In this document: in pieces, positions 1,656-36,912 of the stretch
Numbering within the stretch: the stretch's first letter is position 1
Layout of the letters: each line of letters starts with the position of its first letter
Assembly (NCBI GenBank): GCA_014381465.1
Contig: JACNLP010000077.1
Coordinates: 1-39,180 of the forward strand
DNA from: Flavobacteriales bacterium
Lineage (GTDB): Bacteria; Bacteroidota; Bacteroidia; Flavobacteriales; BACL11
Length of the DNA stretch: 39,180 nucleotides
Direction of reading: 5' to 3'
Notes under the pieces: model-generated
What the model was told of the DNA's origin: nothing
The model's database searches: none
Seen by the model: the letters and a program-made list of their open reading frames with translations, nothing else
Position numbers and translations under genes: made by a program

Positions 1656-2714
1656 GTGAAATCAAAAAAACGAATATTAGTTGCCCCACTAGATTGGGGA
1701 ATTGGGCATGCTACAAGATGCATACCAATAATCAAACAATTAATAGCACATAATTTTGAAGTAATTATTGCTGCAGATGGCAGACCATTACACCTTTTAA
1801 GTACAGAATTCCCTAACTTGGAAATGGTGCGTTTTAGCGGATACAATATAAAATATCCCAAGTATTTACCCATGAGTATTAGTATGCTTTTGCAAACGCC
1901 AAAACTTTTGTGGAGCATAAAAAAAGAAAATACTGCCCTTGCTGAAATCATTAAGGATTATAATATTGATGGCGTAATTTCTGATAATCGTTTTGGATTA
2001 TATTCCAACCAAGTGCCTTGTGTTTTTATTACCCACCAACTGCAAATACAAACGCCTTATTTTACTGATAGTATTCAGGGTTTCAATTACAAATACATCA
2101 ACAAGTATTCTGCTTGCTGGGTAATGGATGATGAGGAAAATAATTTAGCAGGAGAACTTTCCAAACCAAATAGCTTGCCCAACAACACTAAATATATAGG
2201 TGTGCAATCTCGTTTTGAAAAACAAGAAACAATAAAAAAATATGATTTCCTAGCTATTGTTTCAGGGCCTGAACCCCAAAGAACAATTTTAGAAAAAGGA
2301 TTGATAAAAGCATTGAAAAATAGACAAGGAAAATCATTAATTGTATTAGGGAAGCCTGAGTTAAATTCCAAAGAGGAAATAGGGAATTTGAGTATTTACT
2401 CTCATATGAATGCTACTGAACTAAATACTGCAATTCTAGAATCAGAACTTATTATTTGTAGGCCTGGGTATTCCACAGTTATGGATTTAGCAAAGCTTGA
2501 GAAAAAGGCATTTTTCATTCCTACACCAGGACAAACCGAACAAGAATACTTAGCTGATAATTTTAAGCGAAATGGGACTTGTTACTCACAAAATCAAAGT
2601 GATTTTGATTTGGAAGAAGCAATAGAAGAAAGTAAAAATTACTCAGGATTTACAGCATTAAAAACAGCAACAACAAATTGGACTGAATTATTTCGCCTTT
2701 TTGAGGGTGAATGA
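1656..2714 (+). CDS. MurG-like / family 28-type glycosyltransferase of unknown acceptor
   Basis: This 352-residue protein has the two-domain layout of GT-B glycosyltransferases. The N-terminal strand and glycine-rich loop (ILVAPLDWGIGHATR, residues 7-21) resemble the MurG/MGDG-synthase nucleotide-sugar transferases. In the C-terminal half, VSGPEPQRT and CRPGYSTVMDLAKL followed by PTPGQTEQEYLA match the usual donor-binding region. There is no signal peptide, so a cytoplasmic or membrane-peripheral enzyme is likely. The start is GTG at 1656, immediately after a strong -7 element. The last 27 bp overlap the 3' end of the convergent histidine kinase gene. The substrate cannot be assigned: MurG itself is normally found in a cell-wall cluster, and nothing here supports that role. 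Confidence 0.75.
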   Translation: MKSKKRILVAPLDWGIGHATRCIPIIKQLIAHNFEVIIAADGRPLHLLSTEFPNLEMVRFSGYNIKYPKYLPMSISMLLQTPKLLWSIKKENTALAEIIKDYNIDGVISDNRFGLYSNQVPCVFITHQLQIQTPYFTDSIQGFNYKYINKYSACWVMDDEENNLAGELSKPNSLPNNTKYIGVQSRFEKQETIKKYDFLAIVSGPEPQRTILEKGLIKALKNRQGKSLIVLGKPELNSKEEIGNLSIYSHMNATELNTAILESELIICRPGYSTVMDLAKLEKKAFFIPTPGQTEQEYLADNFKRNGTCYSQNQSDFDLEEAIEESKNYSGFTALKTATTNWTELFRLFEGE

Positions 2715-3680
2715 AAAAGTAGAACCTACCCCAACCGTGCTTCTGATATTTAAAGTTTGTTTGTGCGATTCTATAATGTGTTTTACAATAGAAAGCCCTA
2801 GACCTGTACCTCCTTTTTCACGAGAACGACTTTCTTCAACCCTAAAAAATCTTTCAGATAATCTTGGTAAATGGATTTCATCAATTCCTATTCCATCATC
2901 AGAAACCTCAACAAGAATGTTTTCAACCATATCATAAAAACGGATTTTTGTTAAACCGTTTTCATTTCCGTACTTAATAGAATTATCAACCAAATTGGTT
3001 AATACTTGATTGATTTTCATTTTATCCGCTACAACAAAAATAGGACTGTATTCTTTATCAAAAACAAGAGAGATATTGCTTTTCTTTGCCTTATCCTCCA
3101 ATGAGTCTTGAACATTTTTACACAATTCAACTATATCAAATTTTTCAATTTTTAAGTTTTTTTCTTCATGTTCCAAAGTAGAAATACTTTCCAAATCTTC
3201 CACTATGGAAATCATACGCTCCACACTTTTTTGTGTTCTTTGCAAGTACTTTTTATTGATTTGCTCATCTTCAAGAGCCCCCTCTAATAATGTAAGCACA
3301 TAGCCCTGAATGTTGAAAATTGGTGTTTTTAACTCATGTGATACATTCCCTAAAAAATCTCTTCTAAATTTTTCAGTATCTTTTAGATGTTCAATCTCAG
3401 CTTGGCGTTCACTCACCCATTTTTTCACATCTTCTTCTGATGATTCTAAATCAAAATGTTGTTGACTTTTTATCTTCTGGTTTTGAATAATACGATATAA
3501 TGTTTTTATTCTTTTTTCAATGTATTGTTTTATTACAAAATAAGCCAGTAGGAATACTACTATAAAAAGAAATACAAAGGACAGTATTGAAAGAGTTACA
3601 TGAGATATTGCTATGATAAGCCACAAGCAAAGAACTGCAATAAAGGCAATAAAAAATGCTATTTCTTTATTACTTTTCAT
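2688..3680 (-). CDS. phoR: PhoR-type sensor histidine kinase
   Basis: This is a 330-residue membrane histidine kinase, the likely sensor for the adjacent PhoB-type regulator. Two hydrophobic segments (about residues 8-25 and 29-50) form the N-terminal anchor, with almost no extracytoplasmic loop, as in PhoR proteins that sense through the Pst/PhoU complex. The H box is FLGNVSHELKTP with His115. The N box VDNSIKYG lies at 231-238, the G1 box DDGIGID at 261-267 and the G2 box GGTGLGLSIVK at 290-300. No PAS domain is evident between membrane and H box. It overlaps the regulator gene by 11 bp, so the two are translationally coupled. The phosphate role is inferred from its place next to the pst operon; the kinase call is certain. 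Confidence 0.88.
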   Translation of the reverse strand: MKSNKEIAFFIAFIAVLCLWLIIAISHVTLSILSFVFLFIVVFLLAYFVIKQYIEKRIKTLYRIIQNQKIKSQQHFDLESSEEDVKKWVSERQAEIEHLKDTEKFRRDFLGNVSHELKTPIFNIQGYVLTLLEGALEDEQINKKYLQRTQKSVERMISIVEDLESISTLEHEEKNLKIEKFDIVELCKNVQDSLEDKAKKSNISLVFDKEYSPIFVVADKMKINQVLTNLVDNSIKYGNENGLTKIRFYDMVENILVEVSDDGIGIDEIHLPRLSERFFRVEESRSREKGGTGLGLSIVKHIIESHKQTLNIRSTVGVGSTFSFTLKKAK

Positions 3681-4581: not shown

Positions 4582-5529
4582 ATGAAAAAAACAATGAAAA
4601 CATTATTATTTGCAACTGCTACTATATTATTAGTAAGTTGTGGAGGTAGCTCAGAAGAGGCAGCTACAACAAACGAACTAAGTGGTTCAATCAAAATTGA
4701 TGGTTCATCAACAGTTTACCCAATTACTGAGGCAATAGCTGAGGAGTTCAGAGCAGTAGAACCAAAAGTAAAAGTAACAATAGGAGTATCAGGAACAGGA
4801 GGTGGTTTCAAAAAGTTCGGAAGAGGAGAAACGGATATTTCAGATGCTTCAAGACCAATAAAAGACAAAGAAGCAAAAATTTGTGCAGAAAATAATATTA
4901 CTTATGTAGGGTTAACTGTTGCTTATGATGGATTAGCAGTATTAGTAAATCCTGAAAATACTTGGGTAGATTACTTTACTGTAGAGGAATTAAACACAAT
5001 TTGGAATCCATCAGCACAAAACACTATTATGTACTGGGATCAAGTTCGTGAAGGATGGCCACATGAAGAATTACACCTTTTTGGACCTGGAACTGCATCT
5101 GGAACTTATGATTATTTCTCTGAAGCAATTTGCGGAAAGAAAGTAGGAACAAGAGGAGATTACACTGCTTCAGAAGATGACCATGTATTAGTACAAGGAA
5201 TTGCAGGAGACAAGAATGGTTTAGGATTTTTCGGACTGGCTTACTATGAAGAAAATAAAGACAAACTTAGATTGGTTGGGGTTGATAACGGAAATGGAGC
5301 AATTGCACCTACTATGGAAACTGTTGGGAACGGAACTTACGCACCACTTTCTAGACCAATATTTATCTATGTAAATAGTAATGCAAAAACAAGAACGGAA
5401 GTAAGCACATTTGTTTCTTTCTACTTAGATAATGCTGCTGAACTAGTAAAAGATGTTGGTTATATTCCATTACCATCTACTGAGTATGATGCAGAAAAAG
5501 AGAAATTCAACAATTTTTTAAATAACTAA
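4582..5529 (+). CDS. pstS: Phosphate ABC transporter substrate-binding lipoprotein PstS
   Basis: This is the high-affinity phosphate-binding component of the Pst importer. It has 315 residues, with a lipoprotein signal peptide ending in LLVSC and lipidated Cys20, so it would be anchored to a membrane facing the periplasm. The mature protein begins its binding domain with [14 protein letters not shown], the phosphate-loop region of the family. [26 protein letters not shown] and the [15 protein letters not shown] segment carry the Ser/Thr/Gly residues that normally bind the oxyanion. The C-terminal region (YIPLP) is typical. It is the first gene of the pst operon, driven by a promoter with a candidate Pho box, and would be induced by low phosphate. 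The start is well supported by the signal peptide. Confidence 0.95.
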
Positions 5530-5643
5530 ATGGAGAAAACTATAGTAATAATTATGCTAGCTAGCTTTGTGCTATCCGTTTGCTTAATGGTTAAAAAAGA
5601 TAGAAAAGAATACTTTGAAATTTTAAAAAATAGCACAAAATAA
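5530..5643 (+). CDS. Small membrane protein (37 aa) between pstS and pstC
   Basis: This short open frame starts at the base right after the pstS stop codon and encodes MEKTIVIIMLASFVLSVCLM followed by a charged tail rich in Lys, Glu and Arg. The N-terminal 20 residues would form one transmembrane helix. Zero spacing to pstS suggests translational coupling. I do not recognise a family. Many bacterial transporters have single-span micro-proteins as partners, so a modulator of PstSCAB is conceivable, but this is inference. Its last bases overlap the first strand of the RNA leader that follows, so it could instead act as a leader peptide. It may also be a chance open frame. Confidence 0.45.
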   Translation: MEKTIVIIMLASFVLSVCLMVKKDRKEYFEILKNSTK

Positions 5644-5778
5644 TTAGAGGTCTGATTGATTTGTTAGTAGGATAAAGCCCCGAAAATAAATATTCAGATT
5701 CCTAATTGATAAGATGAGTAGGCCTGGGTTAACACAGGTTCAAAGACAAAATACTGTTCCGAAAACTTATCACAATTA
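5642..5778 (+). ncRNA. Structured RNA leader upstream of pstC with mutually exclusive stems
   Basis: The 189-bp gap between the micro-ORF and pstC is highly structured. Stem A pairs 5642-5655 with 5694-5707: 14 positions, with 11 Watson-Crick pairs, two G-U pairs and one mismatch. Stem B pairs 5702-5708 (CTAATTG) with 5773-5779 (CAATTAG) and 5709-5713 (ATAAG) with 5766-5770 (CTTAT). Inside stem B is a hairpin CCTG-8nt-CAGG (5723-5738). Stems A and B both need 5702-5707, so they cannot form together, as in an attenuator or riboswitch. No known riboswitch class was recognised. A simpler role is setting PstS expression above that of the permease genes. Confidence 0.5.
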
Positions 5779-5817
5779 GTAAAGCCGACTGCATTTGCAG
5801 TTCGGATTTTACTTTTT
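5779..5817 (+). terminator. Intrinsic-terminator-like hairpin just before pstC
   Basis: GTAAA (5779-5783) pairs with TTTAC (5808-5812), and CCGACTGC (5785-5792) pairs with the GCAG...CGG strand at 5797-5805 with a one-base bulge, closing a 4-nt loop. A run of five T follows (5813-5817). It ends 15 bp before the pstC ATG, so it would need read-through or antitermination for pstCAB expression. Confidence 0.6.
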
Positions 5818-5832
5818 AAAATAAAAAAGCAA

Positions 5833-6705
5833 ATGAAGAAAGAAAAAATAATAGAAGGATTACTCAAATTCTCAGCCCTTGTAACTATACTTACAACAGT
5901 TGGGATTTTGTATGTTCTACTTTCTGAAAGCATCTCCTTCTTTAGTGAAGTTTCAATTTGGGAATTTATCACTGACAAAGAATGGACTCCCCTTTTTGTA
6001 AACAAACATTTTGGAATAATGCCACTAGTAATGGGAACACTGCTCACTACTTTTATTGCTGTGGCAGTGGCACTTCCTATTGGAATTACAATAGCCATTT
6101 ATTTAAGTGAATATGCACCAAAAAAATTCAAGAAAATTGTAAAACCACTTTTGGAAATACTAGCAGCAGTACCAACTGTTGTTTATGGTTTTTTTGCATT
6201 AATGGTAGTTACTCCATTTTTGCAATCTTTCATTCCTGGAATGTCAGGTTTTAATTCCCTTTCAGCAGGAATTGTAATGGGAATTATGATTATTCCTTAT
6301 GTAAGTTCACTAAGTGAAGATGCGCTTTCAGCAGTGCCAAAATCTTTAAGAAATGCATCTTATGGAATGGGAGCTACAAGGCTGCAAACAGCATTTAAAG
6401 TAATGGTCCCTGCAGCATCTTCAGGTATTATTGTATCGGTAATTTTAGCCTTTTCTCGTGCAATTGGGGAGACTATGATTGTAGCAATAGCAGCAGGGCA
6501 ACAACCAAGATTAACTGCAAACCCATTGGTTCCTGTAGAAACAATTACAGCTTATATTGTGCAAGTAAGTTTGGGAGATGTTGCTCATGGCACATTAGAA
6601 TACAAAACAATATTTGCAGCAGGAATTACTTTATTCATCTTTACATTTATACTTAACAATATTAGTTTTTATATCCGTAAAAAATTCAAAGAGCAATATG
6701 ACTAG
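5833..6705 (+). CDS. pstC: Phosphate ABC transporter permease PstC
   Basis: This is one of two membrane subunits of the Pst importer, 290 residues, with about six predicted transmembrane helices: one near residues 13-33, then segments around 62-90, 108-133, 150-170, 200-225 and 260-280. The cytoplasmic coupling region that contacts PstB is seen in SLRNASYGMGATRLQTAFKVMVP, matching the EAA-loop consensus, and FSRAIGETMIVAIAAGQQP is the conserved permease motif that follows. It lies downstream of the RNA leader and terminator-like hairpin, so its expression may be tuned separately from pstS. The pstA start lies inside its last 8 bp. PstC rather than PstA is assigned by gene order and by the MIVAIAAGQQP motif. 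Confidence 0.94.
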   Translation: MKKEKIIEGLLKFSALVTILTTVGILYVLLSESISFFSEVSIWEFITDKEWTPLFVNKHFGIMPLVMGTLLTTFIAVAVALPIGITIAIYLSEYAPKKFKKIVKPLLEILAAVPTVVYGFFALMVVTPFLQSFIPGMSGFNSLSAGIVMGIMIIPYVSSLSEDALSAVPKSLRNASYGMGATRLQTAFKVMVPAASSGIIVSVILAFSRAIGETMIVAIAAGQQPRLTANPLVPVETITAYIVQVSLGDVAHGTLEYKTIFAAGITLFIFTFILNNISFYIRKKFKEQYD

Positions 6706-7555
6706 AGGGCAAATAAATAGACTAAAAGATCAAGCATTTGCTTATTTTGGTATTTTCTGTACCTTAATTGGTTTAGTAATACTTGCATTTTTTATTGGAA
6801 ATATCTTTTATGATGGTATGACAAGAATTGATTGGGATTTCCTCACAAACTTACCATCACGAAAAGCAGAAAAAGCAGGAATACTTACTGCTTGGGCTGG
6901 TTCAATATGGATTGTGATTTTTACTTTCCTAATTGTAGTTCCCTTAGGAGTTGCAGCAGGAATTTACTTGGAAGAATACGGTAAAAAATCAAAAATAGCA
7001 GAATTATTGGAAGTAAATATTTCTAACTTAGCAGGAGTACCATCTGTAATTTACGGGCTTTTAGGATTAGAAATTTTTGGAAGATTATTTGGAATGGGGA
7101 ATAGTATTTTAGCAGGAAGTGCAACACTTGCTCTGCTTGTTTTACCTATTGTAATTGTAGCAACTCGTGAAGCACTAAAGGCAGTTCCCCCATCAATCAG
7201 AGCTGCATCATTTGGTTTAGGAGCTACAAAATGGCAAACCATTTGGTATCAGGTTTTACCTGCTTCATTTGGGGGAATTTTAACAGGAGTAATTTTAGCA
7301 ATTTCTCGTGCAGTAGGGGAAACTGCCCCACTTATTGTAATTGGTGCTTTGGCTTATGTTCCCTTTACTCCAAGTTCACCAATGGATGAATTTACAGTAC
7401 TTCCAATTCAGATTTTTAATTGGATTTCACGACCACAGCATGAATTTAGCATAAATGCGGCAGCAGCAATTATAGTATTATTACTCATCACATTTGTGAT
7501 GAACGGAATAGCGGTTTATTTCAGAAATAAATGGCAGAAAAAAATAAATTGGTAG
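6698..7555 (+). CDS. pstA: Phosphate ABC transporter permease PstA
   Basis: This is the second Pst membrane subunit, 285 residues from the ATG at 6698. That start overlaps the pstC stop by 8 bp, a typical coupling arrangement. The frame is open further upstream to 6614, but this part lies fully inside pstC and adds residues not usual for PstA. A first transmembrane helix lies near residues 18-42, then about five more. Family motifs include [18 protein letters not shown], the EAA loop [23 protein letters not shown], and [16 protein letters not shown], the last being characteristic of PstA. pstB begins 1 bp after the stop. Confidence 0.94.
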
Positions 7556-9057: not shown

Positions 9058-10767
9058 ATGGAATTCGGAATTTACGAACTATTAAGATTAATTGGAGCAC
9101 TTGGTTTCTTCATCTATGGGATGAAAGTAATGAGTGATGGAATCCAGAAAGCAGGAGGAAGCAAAATGCGTCAAATACTAGGAGGAATGACTTCTAATAG
9201 ATACTTTGGTGTAATGACAGGTTTCTTAATTACTGCAATTGTACAATCATCATCAGCAACTACAGTAATGACGGTAAGTTTTGTAAATGCAGGATTACTT
9301 ACTTTAGTAGAATCGGCAGGGGTAATGATGGGAGCCAATATTGGAACAACTGTTACTGCTTGGATTATTTCTATATTAGGGTTTAAAGTAAAAATGTCAG
9401 CTATTGCATTACCAATTATTGCTTTTGGTATGCCAATGATGTTTGCCAGAAAAACTAAAACTAAAAACTGGGGAGAATTCTTAGTTGGTTTTGCACTTTT
9501 ATTTATCGGACTTTCTGAGTTAAAACATGCAGTTCCTGATGTAAAGAACAACCCAGAAATATTAAACTTTTTAGCTGGTTTTGCTGATATTTCATTTTTA
9601 TCAAGATTAATGTTTGTTGGTGTAGGTACACTTTTAACTATTGTAGTTCAATCTTCTACTGCAGCAATGGCACTTACTTTAGTACTTTGTAATACTGGAG
9701 TAATTCCTTTTGAAGTTGCAGCAGCAATGGTATTAGGTGAAAATATAGGGACAACAATTACTGCAGAACTTGCATCATTAGTAGGAAATGTACATGCTAA
9801 GCGTTCTGCAAGAATACATTCCATGTTCAATATTATTGGGGTTACTTGGATGTTGATTTTAATGCCTTACGCACTTGATATTGTTAATTATTTAGTGTTA
9901 AATTATACTGATATGATTTCACCTTATACTCCTGTAAATGAGTGGGGAGACAACATGTCTCCAGTACCGATTGCCTTATCATTTTTCCACACAGGGTTTA
10001 ATGCATTAAATGTACTTTTACTTATTTGGTTTGTACCTGCACTAGTAAGAGTTGCGGAAAAATCAGTTAAATCACAAGGGGATATGGATGAAAAATTTCA
10101 CTTGGAACATATCGGTACAGGGCTTATGCAAACAGCTGAACTTTCAGTATTAGAAGCAAATAAAGAAGTAGCTAAATTTGGGGAAATTACTAGCCGATTA
10201 CTCGATATGATTCCTGAATTATTAAAGGAAACTGATGATAAAAAATTTGGCAAACAAATGGCTCGCATCCGTAAGTATGAAGATATTACTGATAGAATGG
10301 AGGTGGAAATTGCTGATTACCTAGCAAAAGCATCTCAAGGTGAAATGTCTGATTCTGCTTCCATTAAAGTTAGAAGTATGATTTCAATGATTAACGATAT
10401 GGAAAGAATTGGAGATATTTGCTATCAAATGTCAATTTCAGTAGAGCGTAAAAACGAGCAGAAAGCGTACTTTACTCCTGAACTAAGAGAAAGTCTTGAC
10501 CAAATGATTACTGAAGTTCAAAAAGCAATGGTTATTATGAATAAAAACCTAGAATCTTCTTACTCTCAAGTTACAATTACTGATGCTAATGAGGCTGAAA
10601 TAATCATCAATAAGGTGAGAAATAAGTTGAGAAAAACTTACTTACAGAAAATTGAAAAAGGAGAAGTGAAAATGCAAACTGCTATGATTTACAACAATAT
10701 GATACACTCATTAGAAAAAGTGGGTGATCATATTTTCAATATTACTGAAGCAATTACAGGAAATTAA
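9058..10767 (+). CDS. Na+/phosphate cotransporter with C-terminal PhoU domain (NptA/YjbB type)
   Basis: This 569-residue protein has two parts. Residues 1-330 are an Na+/Pi-cotransporter (SLC34-like) membrane domain with two inverted QSS repeats: AIVQSSSATTVMT around residue 65 and IVVQSSTAAMALT around 202, each followed by a GxNIGTT motif (MGANIGTTVTAWI and LGENIGTTITAEL). Residues from about 360 form a helical PhoU-like domain (NDMERIGDICYQ and LEKVGDHIFNI). The protein would move phosphate across the inner membrane in a sodium-coupled way; in some bacteria family members export phosphate. It sits directly behind phoU with its own Pho-box promoter and is followed by a strong terminator. Direction of transport cannot be read from the sequence. 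Confidence 0.9.
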   Translation: MEFGIYELLRLIGALGFFIYGMKVMSDGIQKAGGSKMRQILGGMTSNRYFGVMTGFLITAIVQSSSATTVMTVSFVNAGLLTLVESAGVMMGANIGTTVTAWIISILGFKVKMSAIALPIIAFGMPMMFARKTKTKNWGEFLVGFALLFIGLSELKHAVPDVKNNPEILNFLAGFADISFLSRLMFVGVGTLLTIVVQSSTAAMALTLVLCNTGVIPFEVAAAMVLGENIGTTITAELASLVGNVHAKRSARIHSMFNIIGVTWMLILMPYALDIVNYLVLNYTDMISPYTPVNEWGDNMSPVPIALSFFHTGFNALNVLLLIWFVPALVRVAEKSVKSQGDMDEKFHLEHIGTGLMQTAELSVLEANKEVAKFGEITSRLLDMIPELLKETDDKKFGKQMARIRKYEDITDRMEVEIADYLAKASQGEMSDSASIKVRSMISMINDMERIGDICYQMSISVERKNEQKAYFTPELRESLDQMITEVQKAMVIMNKNLESSYSQVTITDANEAEIIINKVRNKLRKTYLQKIEKGEVKMQTAMIYNNMIHSLEKVGDHIFNITEAITGN

Positions 10768-10922: not shown

Positions 10923-11882
10923 ATGAAAAAAACAATTTTAGCACTTAGTGCTGCACTTTTAACAGTAATCTCTGTTAATGCTCAAGAAGGAAAACCTTCA
11001 GTAAAAATCTTCTCAAACTTCAACTATGATTTATCAGCTGAAGAAGGAGAAAATGCTTTTAAAGCATTTGAAATTAAAAGATCTTACCTAGGTTATTCTT
11101 ACAAATTTGATGAGAAATTCTCAACAAAAATAACTTTTGATGTTGGTAGTAATGATGGAGGGTCAGCTTATACTGCTTATTTAAAAGTAGCTACTTTACA
11201 ATGGAAAGCTACTGATAACTTAACTTTGAATATTGGACAACAAGGAGTAAAAAACTTTAAGTTTATGGAAAAAGCTTGGGGGAAAAGATACATTGCAAAA
11301 TCTGCACAAGATAAATACAAATGGTCAAGTTCATCTGACCAAGGTGTAACGGCTGACTATAAATTATCTGATAAATTAAGCTTTGATGCTCAAGTATTAA
11401 ATGGTGAAGGATATAAAAAATCACAAGATAATACTGGATTAATGAGAGGTGGTTTAGGTATGACATATAAAGCAATGGACAACTTATCTTTAAGATTACA
11501 TCATGATATTACTCCAAGAGCTACTTATACTGAAAATGATGCATCACAAAGCATTACTACTATTGCTTTTGCTTATAGTGGGAACAACTTTACTTTAGGT
11601 GGAGAGAAGAACTTAATGAAAAATGTAGGGAATGTTTTAGATGCAGAGAATGACATGATGAGTGTATATGGCGCATATAACTTAACAGACAAATACACTT
11701 TGTTTGCTAGATATGATGATGCTTCAGAAACTGCTAAAGCTGGAACTTATACAGTTTATGGAATTGAAAGACAAATGACTAAAGGAGTTACTGTGGCTTT
11801 AAATATGCAATCATGGACAGATGCTGCTGAGGGATCAGAAGCTGAAAATACTTTATACTTAAATTTAGAATACAAGTTTTAA
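10923..11882 (+). CDS. Outer-membrane porin, probably phosphate-induced
   Basis: This 319-residue protein has a cleavable signal peptide (MKKTILALSAALLTVISVNA, cut before Gln21). The mature part alternates amphipathic beta strands, with many aromatic and Gly residues and a C-terminal strand ending in NLEYKF, the terminal aromatic expected of outer-membrane beta barrels. Segments such as FEIKRSYLGYSYKFDEKFSTKITFDVG and YTVYGIERQMTKGVTVALNMQSW are typical porin strands and turns. The promoter carries three Pho-box-like repeats, and the gene directly follows the phosphate transport genes, so phosphate or phosphorylated-solute uptake across the outer membrane is the best inference. It may relate to the OprP/OprO porin family, but the sequence is short for that family and I cannot confirm it. 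Confidence 0.8.
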   Translation: MKKTILALSAALLTVISVNAQEGKPSVKIFSNFNYDLSAEEGENAFKAFEIKRSYLGYSYKFDEKFSTKITFDVGSNDGGSAYTAYLKVATLQWKATDNLTLNIGQQGVKNFKFMEKAWGKRYIAKSAQDKYKWSSSSDQGVTADYKLSDKLSFDAQVLNGEGYKKSQDNTGLMRGGLGMTYKAMDNLSLRLHHDITPRATYTENDASQSITTIAFAYSGNNFTLGGEKNLMKNVGNVLDAENDMMSVYGAYNLTDKYTLFARYDDASETAKAGTYTVYGIERQMTKGVTVALNMQSWTDAAEGSEAENTLYLNLEYKF

Positions 11883-33245: not shown

Positions 33246-35086
33246 TGTGTGGAATTGTAGGATATGTAGGTGGCCAGCAGGCCTATCCAATTGTAGTAAA
33301 AGGACTACATAGATTGGAGTATAGAGGTTATGATAGTGCTGGAATTGCCATCACAACTGAAAATCATTTAAACATTTACAAACAAGCTGGCAAAGTTTCT
33401 GATTTAGAAGATTTTGTAAAAGGTAAAAATATTGATGGAAATATCGGAATTGGACATACTAGATGGGCAACTCATGGAGTGCCAAATCAAATAAATGCAC
33501 ATCCACATAAGTCGGGTGACAGTAATTTAGCACTTATACATAATGGGATTATTGAAAATTATGATTCTTTAAAAAAAGCTCTAATAAAAAGAGGGCATAT
33601 ATTTGAAAGCGAAACAGACACAGAAGTGCTTGTACATTTGATTGAAGAAATTAAGAAAAAGGAAAAAGTAAATTTGTTTGAAGCGGTTCGTTTGGCACTT
33701 AATGAAGTAGTTGGGGCTTATGCTATTCTAGTAATTGATAAAGGAAATAAAGAGGAAATGATAGCAGCTAGAAAAGGAAGTCCACTTGTAATTGGGATTG
33801 GGAAAGGCGAGTATTTTGTAGCTTCTGATGCTACGCCAATTGTAGAATATACTAGGAATGTTGTTTATTTGGAAGATGAGCAAATTGCGAGAATCAATAA
33901 AGGTGAGGAATTGGAAATCAAAACCATTTCTAACATTAAAAAAACGCCTTATATTGATGAGTTAGAGCTTAGCTTAGAAGCCATTGAAAAAGAAGGGTTT
34001 GAGCATTTTATGCTCAAAGAAATTTTTGAGCAGCCAAAATGTATTTTAGATACCATGCGTGGGAGAATCAATGCTAAAACTGGCGAAATTACTTTGGGTG
34101 GAATTCTGGATTATGAAAAGAAAATATTGAATGCTGAGCGTATTATTATTGTGGCTTGTGGTACTTCTTGGCATGCCGGTCTTATTGGAGAATATTTGTT
34201 TGAAGACTTGGCAAGAATTCCGGTTGAGGTGGAATACGCCTCAGAGTTCCGATACAGAAACCCTATTATAACTGAAAAAGATGTGGTTTTGGCTATTTCT
34301 CAATCGGGGGAAACAGCAGATACCATGGCAGCATTGGAACTTGCCAAACAAAAAGGAGCTACTATTTTAGGGATTTGTAATGTGGTTGGCTCCTCTATTC
34401 CAAGATTAACAGATGCCGGAAGTTACACTCATGCTGGCCCGGAAATAGGGGTGGCATCTACCAAAGCATTTACCACACAAGTGGTGGTGCTTACCCTTAT
34501 GGCACTCAGGATTGCAAAAGAAAAAGGCACACTTTCCGCTACCGAGTATCGCCAAATTATTACCGAACTGGAACTCATTCCTGAGAAAGTGCAAAAGGTA
34601 TTAAAATCAGATGATATGATTAAAGAAATAGCAGCTGAATTTAAAGAGGCAACTAATTTTTTATATTTAGGTAGGGGTTACAATTTCCCAGTTGCTTTGG
34701 AGGGAGCACTGAAACTTAAAGAAATTTCCTACATACATGCAGAAGGCTATCCAGCAGCAGAAATGAAGCACGGCCCAATTGCACTTATTGATGAGCACAT
34801 GCCCATTGTGGTGCTTGCCACTCGCAAAGGGAATTATGAAAAAGTAGTTAGCAATATACAAGAGGTCAAAGCAAGGGGAGGACGACTGATTGCCATTGTA
34901 ACAGAAGGAGATAAAACAGTAAAAGAAATAGCTGATTATTGCATTGAAATTCCATCTTGTTTTGAAGAGTTGATGCCACTCCTTTCCATTATTCCATTGC
35001 AATTGCTCTCTTACCATATTGCAGTAATACGAAATTGTAATGTGGATCAGCCAAGAAATTTGGCAAAGTCGGTAACGGTTGAATAG
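33245..35086 (+). CDS. glmS: Glutamine--fructose-6-phosphate aminotransferase GlmS
   Basis: GlmS makes glucosamine-6-phosphate from fructose-6-phosphate and glutamine, the first step to UDP-GlcNAc. The 613-residue product is complete. The N-terminal glutaminase domain starts MCGIVGYVGG with nucleophile Cys2, then RLEYRGYDSAG and HTRWATHG. The C-terminal half has two SIS domains: CGTSWHAGLIGEYL, SQSGETADTMAAL, GPEIGVASTKAFTTQ, GRGYNFPVALEGALKLKEISYIHAEGYPAAEMKHGPIAL. The C-terminus NVDQPRNLAKSVTVE is canonical, so the gene is not interrupted. The last 40 bp are shared, in antisense, with the recombinase ORF, marking this as the attachment site of the element to the right. No glmS ribozyme is present, as expected for the phylum. 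Confidence 0.97.
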   Translation: MCGIVGYVGGQQAYPIVVKGLHRLEYRGYDSAGIAITTENHLNIYKQAGKVSDLEDFVKGKNIDGNIGIGHTRWATHGVPNQINAHPHKSGDSNLALIHNGIIENYDSLKKALIKRGHIFESETDTEVLVHLIEEIKKKEKVNLFEAVRLALNEVVGAYAILVIDKGNKEEMIAARKGSPLVIGIGKGEYFVASDATPIVEYTRNVVYLEDEQIARINKGEELEIKTISNIKKTPYIDELELSLEAIEKEGFEHFMLKEIFEQPKCILDTMRGRINAKTGEITLGGILDYEKKILNAERIIIVACGTSWHAGLIGEYLFEDLARIPVEVEYASEFRYRNPIITEKDVVLAISQSGETADTMAALELAKQKGATILGICNVVGSSIPRLTDAGSYTHAGPEIGVASTKAFTTQVVVLTLMALRIAKEKGTLSATEYRQIITELELIPEKVQKVLKSDDMIKEIAAEFKEATNFLYLGRGYNFPVALEGALKLKEISYIHAEGYPAAEMKHGPIALIDEHMPIVVLATRKGNYEKVVSNIQEVKARGGRLIAIVTEGDKTVKEIADYCIEIPSCFEELMPLLSIIPLQLLSYHIAVIRNCNVDQPRNLAKSVTVE

Positions 35087-35088
35087 TT
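35047..35088. other. Putative attachment site at the 3' end of glmS
   Basis: The end of glmS (codons RNLAKSVTVE plus stop) coincides with the end of the recombinase gene on the opposite strand. glmS remains intact, while the recombinase borrows its stop from glmS, as expected for insertion into a gene end. The second attachment site should be a repeat of these bases beyond 39180 and cannot be seen. The same glmS end is the classic Tn7 target, but no Tn7 genes occur here. Confidence 0.55.
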
Positions 35089-36912
35089 AGAAAGGGTAAT
35101 TTGTGAAGATACCTTTTTTCTGTTCTGATTGTGAATGTAATTTTCATCACTCCATTTATATTCTTTTCTATCAATTTTAGTAGGTGGAATAGTATAACTA
35201 TTCTCACCTTTTCTAATTATAAACTTCCCATTCTTATTCTTATATCTGATATCGTTTATAATTGGTTTTTTAAATATGATTTTAAATGTATGTAGTTTAG
35301 TTTCTTTATCCCAAACTACTTCTATTTTATCTAAAAATTTATTCAGAAAATCTTTTCTCTTTTTGAGTTCTGTTAGTTCTGATAATTCGTGATATTCTTC
35401 ATCAAATATATTTAACCATTCAATCCATTTTTTATCATCTACTAACTCATCAATTACTAAACTAATTTCATGAAGTTTCTGATTATTTGTAGATATATTT
35501 TCTTGAAGTTTACTCTTTAATTTCTCGTATTTATCTTTACTAACATTTCCCTCATAATATTCATCTTCTAAATCACTAATTAACCCATTATACTTATCAA
35601 TACTTCTTAAAATATAACTTCTAGAATTTTCTTGTTTACGAATACTACCATTAATATCCATTCCATTTCTATCTGAAATAACTTTATCTATTATTTCTTT
35701 TTTAAATTCTTCCTTTATTAAATAACTGTTCTTCCAAACCTCTAATATTGAATCCCAAATTAGATTGTCTGTTTTATCAGTATTCATACTTTTATTTGAC
35801 TTACATTTTGGATGTTTTTTCGGATTATTCCAATATCTCTCAACTGTCCGACAAACATAATTACTCATCTCATTTCCATTCTTATTTTTCCTTTTCTTCC
35901 TACCCATTAATTTACCACAACCATTACAAACTAAATATGTAGTTAAAAGAGTTTCATTATCTCTAACTCCACCATTAATCATCTTATCTAAACTTCTACT
36001 ATTCTTAATTTTATTCTGAACTCTTTTCCATAAATCAGTTTCTATAATTTTAGGAAATATATATTGGTGTTTATATTCGTTTCCATTAACATCATTAAAT
36101 ACATAATCTGTATATCCTATATAGGATGTTTTTTTAAGTAAACTAACAATTGATCCTCTATTCCATATATCATTTCCTCTTCTTGTTTTCACACCATTTT
36201 TAAATAATTCTGATTGAATATATTTTAGAGTTTTTTTCTCGTCATACCATTCAAACATCTTCTTAACCCATTTACTTTCTTTTCTATCTTCTAATATTTT
36301 TCCATCTTTAACTTTCCACCCAAAACCAATCATACCACCACACCATTCTCCATTCTTTACTTTACTCAACTTTCCTAATACACTTCTCATTCTTCTAATA
36401 CTATTTTCGTGTTCTGAAAATAATGATAGAACACCAAACATTAATCTGTCATTTGGACTTGAAAAATTATACTTTCCACTCTTTTCAAATAACCTAACAT
36501 CATTCTTTCTTAATTCCCATTTTAATAAATTACTAACATTTTCATTTCTACTTAATCTACTCATATCTTGTATGAATAAATTTTTCACTTTACCTGATTT
36601 AATTCTGTTATATAATTGATTAAGAACCGGTCGATTATTTATAAATTCTGAATTAGATGATTTTCCTTTTTCATTCCAAATAATTGTAAGAGGAAAACTC
36701 ATTTTACTACCTAATTCCATTCCTAACCTTTTCTGATTATCTAAACTATAATTATCTTCTTGATTTCTTGTTGAAACTCTTATATAAACATGTAATAAAT
36801 CTTGTTCTCTAAACCCACTTCCAGACTTCTTTAAAAGAAAGTTAATCTTATCTTCATACTCATTCAGATTGTCTGAACTAATTTCTATACTACTTATTTT
36901 ACTCTTTTTCAT
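35047..36912 (-). CDS. Large serine recombinase / site-specific integrase
   Basis: The 621-residue product is a large serine recombinase. The resolvase N-terminal domain (about 38-185) has YIRVSTRNQ with the nucleophile at Ser47 and DMSRLSR (116-122) with catalytic Arg. An unusual 38-residue extension comes before it. The Recombinase domain (about 190-300) carries GGMIGFGWKVKDG and RGSIVSLLKKTSYIGYT. A zinc ribbon follows with Cys329, Cys332, Cys354 and Cys370, then a coiled coil (about 405-490). The last 12 codons and the TGA stop (ending YSTVTDFAKFLG) are read antisense from the 3' end of glmS, so this C-terminus was acquired on integration. The start overlaps the next gene upstream by 14 bp. 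Confidence 0.9.
   Translation of the reverse strand: MKKSKISSIEISSDNLNEYEDKINFLLKKSGSGFREQDLLHVYIRVSTRNQEDNYSLDNQKRLGMELGSKMSFPLTIIWNEKGKSSNSEFINNRPVLNQLYNRIKSGKVKNLFIQDMSRLSRNENVSNLLKWELRKNDVRLFEKSGKYNFSSPNDRLMFGVLSLFSEHENSIRRMRSVLGKLSKVKNGEWCGGMIGFGWKVKDGKILEDRKESKWVKKMFEWYDEKKTLKYIQSELFKNGVKTRRGNDIWNRGSIVSLLKKTSYIGYTDYVFNDVNGNEYKHQYIFPKIIETDLWKRVQNKIKNSRSLDKMINGGVRDNETLLTTYLVCNGCGKLMGRKKRKNKNGNEMSNYVCRTVERYWNNPKKHPKCKSNKSMNTDKTDNLIWDSILEVWKNSYLIKEEFKKEIIDKVISDRNGMDINGSIRKQENSRSYILRSIDKYNGLISDLEDEYYEGNVSKDKYEKLKSKLQENISTNNQKLHEISLVIDELVDDKKWIEWLNIFDEEYHELSELTELKKRKDFLNKFLDKIEVVWDKETKLHTFKIIFKKPIINDIRYKNKNGKFIIRKGENSYTIPPTKIDRKEYKWSDENYIHNQNRKKVSSQITLSNYSTVTDFAKFLG

Follow-up and report, generated by a model that had tools for sequence, protein, structure and literature searches.

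What lies between pstS and pstC in this Flavobacteriales genome, and does it control the genes behind it? The window, that is, the whole stretch of 39,180 nt that was analysed, carries a spacer that an initial annotation had read as an attenuator or riboswitch, with two stems competing ahead of a terminator and separating the level of PstS from that of PstCAB. That reading missed three things: the conserved core of the RNA is the inner part of the proposed stem B, the micro-ORF behind pstS is part of the same unit, and this unit recurs elsewhere. The locus is laid out as follows.

4582-5529, + strand: pstS, the phosphate-binding protein gene, with Pho-box-like repeats in its promoter (best site TTTACAATTTCTTAACACTATCTTAA; this promoter is itself among those that built the motif)
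5530-5643, + strand: transmembrane micro-ORF of 37 aa, MEKTIVIIMLASFVLSVCLMVKKDRKEYFEILKNSTK, starting directly 3' of the pstS stop; its KDRKEY is common to the RNA-adjacent micro-ORFs of relatives
5642-5707, + strand: stem A of the initial annotation, found only in the two pst copies
5702-5779, + strand: stem B of the initial annotation (5702-5713 with 5766-5779), of which the six outer pairs are in competition with stem A and stay unformed in the prediction
5711-5769, + strand: conserved RNA core of 59 nt, defined by covariance models and alignment
5778-5817, + strand: terminator-like hairpin with T run; hairpins also stand in the spacers of eight relatives
5833-6705, + strand: pstC

Both stems exist as possible pairings. 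Stem A (5642-5655 with 5694-5707) is 14 nt long and 79% complementary, and stem B has 12 bp with 5772-5773 bulged. The hairpin before pstC is likewise real, with a T run reaching 5817, 15 bp from pstC, but its exact span is 5778-5813 and it shares two bases with stem B, A5778 as well as G5779, rather than G5779 only. The region folds at -47.9 kcal/mol, below all 200 dinucleotide shuffles (z -3.99), and a close relative, G012, folds still better than the window (z -6.3). What fell away is the competition between the stems, for which the predicted energies give no real basis. In equilibrium predictions without loop-E energies, run on 5600-5832 and on shorter transcripts, stem A has a pair probability of 0.90-0.98 (about 0.97) and the complete terminator hairpin one of 1.00, while the competing extension of stem B stays at 0.00-0.07 at every transcript length tried. 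These pair probabilities reveal no mutually exclusive stems that decide terminator formation. The attenuator reading is unsupported because the prediction has stem A and hairpin forming together and leaves the extension of stem B unpaired, and because no copies but the two in pst have stem A at all.

The spacer itself points to a different origin. It measures 303 and 299 nt in the two pst copies (window and G012), whereas those of eight other relatives measure 83-121 nt and hold one plain hairpin each. Since all eight have this hairpin, it is an ordinary part of the pstS-pstC spacer, and the core and micro-ORF are extra and lie upstream of it, which marks them as an added module. The most economical history has micro-ORF and RNA inserted upstream of a pre-existing hairpin, and it illustrates that an attenuator-like spacer can in fact consist of an ordinary hairpin with a module inserted ahead of it.

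Further copies were sought with DNA, covariance and pattern searches. A DNA search of 52 genomes of the family returned a single close copy. It lies in G012, matches 5642-5780 at 96% identity and occupies the same place between pstS and pstC. A covariance model built from the window and G012 (R1), run against 395 genomes of the order, added two short matches, in which conservation is confined to the inner part of stem B; its antisense match in G012 arises from inverted repeats there and was discarded. From five rows a second model (R2) was built. In the order sample it picked out nine places, one of them the window, spread over eight genomes that all belong to a single uncultured Flavobacteriales family, each with E<1e-12; its other matches there, at E 1e-3 or worse, were judged by eye to be chance. 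Across 395 phylum genomes, the same model gave nothing clear except the window. With nine rows in the model (R3), the same nine places came back from the 52 family genomes, and only the window at E 0.001 from 395 genomes of the class. The covariance searches used Infernal's stricter filters and sampled genomes, and absence elsewhere is for this reason not proven.

A pattern scan of viral contigs uncovered one true phage copy (L052), and a further scan a second (L126) on a 232-kb contig, with covariance scores of 72 and 68 bits. INPHARED phages and PLSDB plasmids gave no matches, and the relatives of phage L052 that were traced through its large protein are without the core. Several candidates were set aside: L042, the other place where the 21-base pattern matched a genome, lies within a coding gene and is chance; L053, L080-L086 and L125 from the viral scans are chance by sequence and structure; and L124 was dismissed by eye, as were the non-family matches with E between 1e-3 and 0.05.

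The core folds as a three-way junction in which the 8-nt loop of P2 holds a palindromic hexamer. All parts lie on the + strand.

Within 5711-5769: P1
5717-5720 opposite 5761-5763: AGUA opposite GAA, a loop-E-like motif recognised from the letters
5721-5722 with 5759-5760: P1b
5723-5726 with 5735-5738: P2, with loop GGUUAACA
5739-5744: UUCAAA, between P2 and P3
5745-5748 with 5755-5758: P3

The conserved sequence of inner stem B runs AGUAGGCCU, loop, AGGUUCAAA, P3, CCGAAAA, and its AGUA/GAA apposition can be read as a loop-E (bulged-G) motif. A covariation search in relatives had been suggested as a check, and it yielded both conservation and covariation. Paired cells make up 93.8% of the ten-row alignment against 76.3% when shuffled, and the covariation score is 0.606 against 0.236 (0 of 500 shuffles as high; slid controls at most 0.133). 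Each of P1, P1b, P2 and P3 has at least one pair changed on both sides. The structure was drawn from the first five rows, so the fit is favoured on those; L058-L061 and L126 joined later and fit. Independent sequences are few, about six lineages, since the window and G012 are near-identical, as are L059-L061. RNAalifold alone recovers P2 and P3 but not P1, and in the window P1 pairs poorly, the energy model preferring a different register that leaves P1b unformed. For this limited set of relatives, the core is a well-supported new structured RNA family. L058-L061 may also have an outer helix and an extra hairpin, as read by eye.

That the initial annotation recognised no known class agrees with our comparisons. 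At the window and at eight loci with relatives, no family other than tRNA scored at or above its Rfam 15 gathering cut-off. Searches below threshold were also run, and the retron RT-14 family (RF02921) scored 21.2 bits (E 0.9) where its cut-off is 48.1. It matched stem A and not the core, the likeness being limited to UAGUA opposite GAA, and no reverse transcriptase gene was recognised by eye among the listed ORFs of the window.

The P2 loop hexamer takes the forms GUUAAC, GUAUAC and GUGCAC, staying palindromic while its letters change, in three distinct forms only (alignment A9). No second copy of the hexamer lies within -250 to +200 of the core start. By analogy, such a loop may let two copies of the RNA kiss and dimerise. 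Only a small number of natural RNAs have been found to act as homodimers (PMC7357161). The dimerisation initiation site of HIV-1 presents a six-base palindrome in an apical loop (GUGCAC itself), and oskar has a six-base palindromic loop in its mRNA 3'UTR (PMC7357161). The palindromic apical loop is alike, but these RNAs are unrelated to ours, an analogy and not a homology; the core further differs in that its loop closes an arm of its three-way junction and its dimer is hypothetical. GOLLD, ROOL and OLE are also structured bacterial RNAs, and form homo-oligomers (PMC12286853); they are much larger than the core, which has no Rfam match. A palindromic loop that changes its letters in this way offers a cheap and direct test of the homodimer idea.

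Outside pst, the core always lies at or just behind the stop codon of an ORF, with P1 beginning at or within about 15 nt of that codon. It follows a TonB receptor gene plus micro-ORF at four loci (L057, L058, L059, L073), a micro-ORF preceded by what remains of a lost TonB gene, its last codons, at two (L060, L061), and phage micro-ORFs at two more (L052, L126). All of these ORFs are transmembrane micro-ORFs; the exception is L054, where there is no micro-ORF and the core comes straight after a porin-like gene that has a phoU-like gene upstream. A terminator hairpin, read by eye, follows every copy outside pst. Because these copies end transcripts, behind an ORF and before a terminator, the RNA is not generally a 5' leader, and relatives do not show it in such a position before regulated genes; its 3' position outside pst is well supported. 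In the two pst copies, between pstS and pstC, stem A sits between micro-ORF and core, with a distance of 68 nt from the stop codon to the core. Inside stem A, positions 5660-5690 resemble the core in abbreviated form (AGUA/GAA, GG/CC; 19.1 bits, E 0.009).

The bacterial micro-ORFs mostly share KDRKEY; the phage micro-ORFs lack it and have a common KID-TP-LY stretch. At L093 and L098 (genomes G017 and G026), a TonB-type gene is followed by a KDRKEY micro-ORF without the RNA core. In phage L103, a relative of L052, Pho-box-like repeats and micro-ORF are retained, and another sequence, containing GGTTCAAA, stands where the RNA would be (about 6569-6800). Because L060 and L061 keep only the end of the TonB gene, a mobile element was considered, and was rejected when no element boundaries were found. 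At these two loci, as at L097 and L099, the TonB gene is reduced to its last codons beside an intact micro-ORF, RNA and terminator, and L061 has a tRNA gene just downstream. Near another broken TonB gene (L096, 1464-1491), a small AGTAG...CTGAAAA hairpin scores 18.3 bits with R2 and recalls stem A of the window.

The promoters may tie several of these transcripts to phosphate. With a motif of 11-bp repeats built from eight pstS promoters, sequence scores show Pho-box-like repeats clearly before the pst, porin and phage transcripts and marginally before the TonB-linked ones. The phage micro-ORF promoters score 14.9-17.9 and the L054 porin promoter 13.9, while the TonB-linked micro-ORFs score 7.3-11.4, with 1 to 28 of 200 shuffles as good. 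Only 6 of the 131 ORFs scanned reach 8.7 or more, four of them being pstS (twice, both used in building the motif), an Na/Pi gene and a porin. The micro-ORF of the window has no Pho box of its own (4.3 bits; 24 of 200 shuffles). Elsewhere in the window, an Na/Pi cotransporter gene (9058-10767) and a porin-like gene (10923-11882) have Pho-box-like repeats upstream, scoring 17.6 and 16.2 bits.

The element therefore looks new and linked to phosphate rather than an on/off switch: micro-ORF and RNA recur together beside other phosphate-related genes of related uncultured bacteria, as well as in two large phages, and fit no known RNA family. We propose, with a probability of roughly 0.6, a phosphate-linked module in which a transmembrane micro-ORF is coupled to a three-way-junction RNA at the 3' end of the message, before a terminator-like hairpin. 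Here the module would have been inserted between pstS and the older hairpin, and would thus end a shorter pstS-micro-ORF transcript. Some polymerases would read on into pstCAB, the hairpin terminating only partly. The earlier suggestion that PstS and PstCAB levels are separated survives in part: the hairpin behind the structured RNA could set PstS above PstCAB, without a switch of alternative stems. The RNA may serve as a 3' domain that protects the message or binds a protein or another RNA, and a structured 3'-end domain of phosphate-starvation messages is its most likely identity. The parts are nonetheless separable, which counts against a module: the porin copy L054 has no micro-ORF, L093 and L098 have no RNA, and L103 has a different 3' sequence.

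Other functions deserve weighing. Core and terminator might act as a small RNA, either released from the message or produced on its own, and pair with or sequester other molecules during phosphate starvation, the micro-ORF turning it into a dual-function RNA. Core plus terminator do come to about 110 nt and stand in short transcription units that have promoter-like sequences of their own, and phages carry the core, but no conserved single-stranded seed was noticed, the pst and porin copies are part of a long transcript, and we hold this trans-acting role to be possible though improbable. Control of pstCAB by an attenuator or riboswitch, as first proposed, has on its side a structured RNA and a terminator-like hairpin 15 bp upstream of pstC, with possible stems that overlap; the lack of predicted stem competition, the absence of stem A from other copies and the 3' position of those copies make it unlikely. 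The proximity of P1 to the stop codon outside pst would suit a cis element acting on translation or stability of the upstream micro-ORF, with the terminating ribosome melting P1, and a small-molecule aptamer in the 3' UTR would suit the loop-E-like and junction motifs, which are common in aptamers. Either is quite doubtful, with one core following a porin gene and the pst cores 68 nt from the stop.

Could the spacer simply be an ordinary intercistronic hairpin beside a chance fold? Such a hairpin is indeed the rule in relatives, but the core turns up again in unrelated contexts, carrying compensatory changes, and this covariation largely refutes the idea, leaving it barely credible.

It is tempting to speculate that the core defines a new self-dimerising small-RNA family, placed 3' in the messages of micro-genes for phosphate starvation and common to an uncultured Flavobacteriales family and large phages that would use host PhoB to express it and so act on the host phosphate response; we offer this only tentatively. 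The available part of one report describes cyanophage genes with Pho boxes run by host PhoBR and reports no structured RNA (PMC10976474); Pho boxes are alike in our phage copies, though phages and hosts are different. A covariation-supported RNA without an Rfam match, tied to phosphate genes and a membrane micropeptide, is present in phages and bacteria. Near the phage copy L126 lies a polyphosphate kinase 2 gene (2623-3471), adjoined by UvdE and tRNA nucleotidyltransferase genes. In the window, a recombinase-like ORF seen by eye (35047-36912) overlaps the 3' end of a GlmS-like gene and is perhaps an inserted element.
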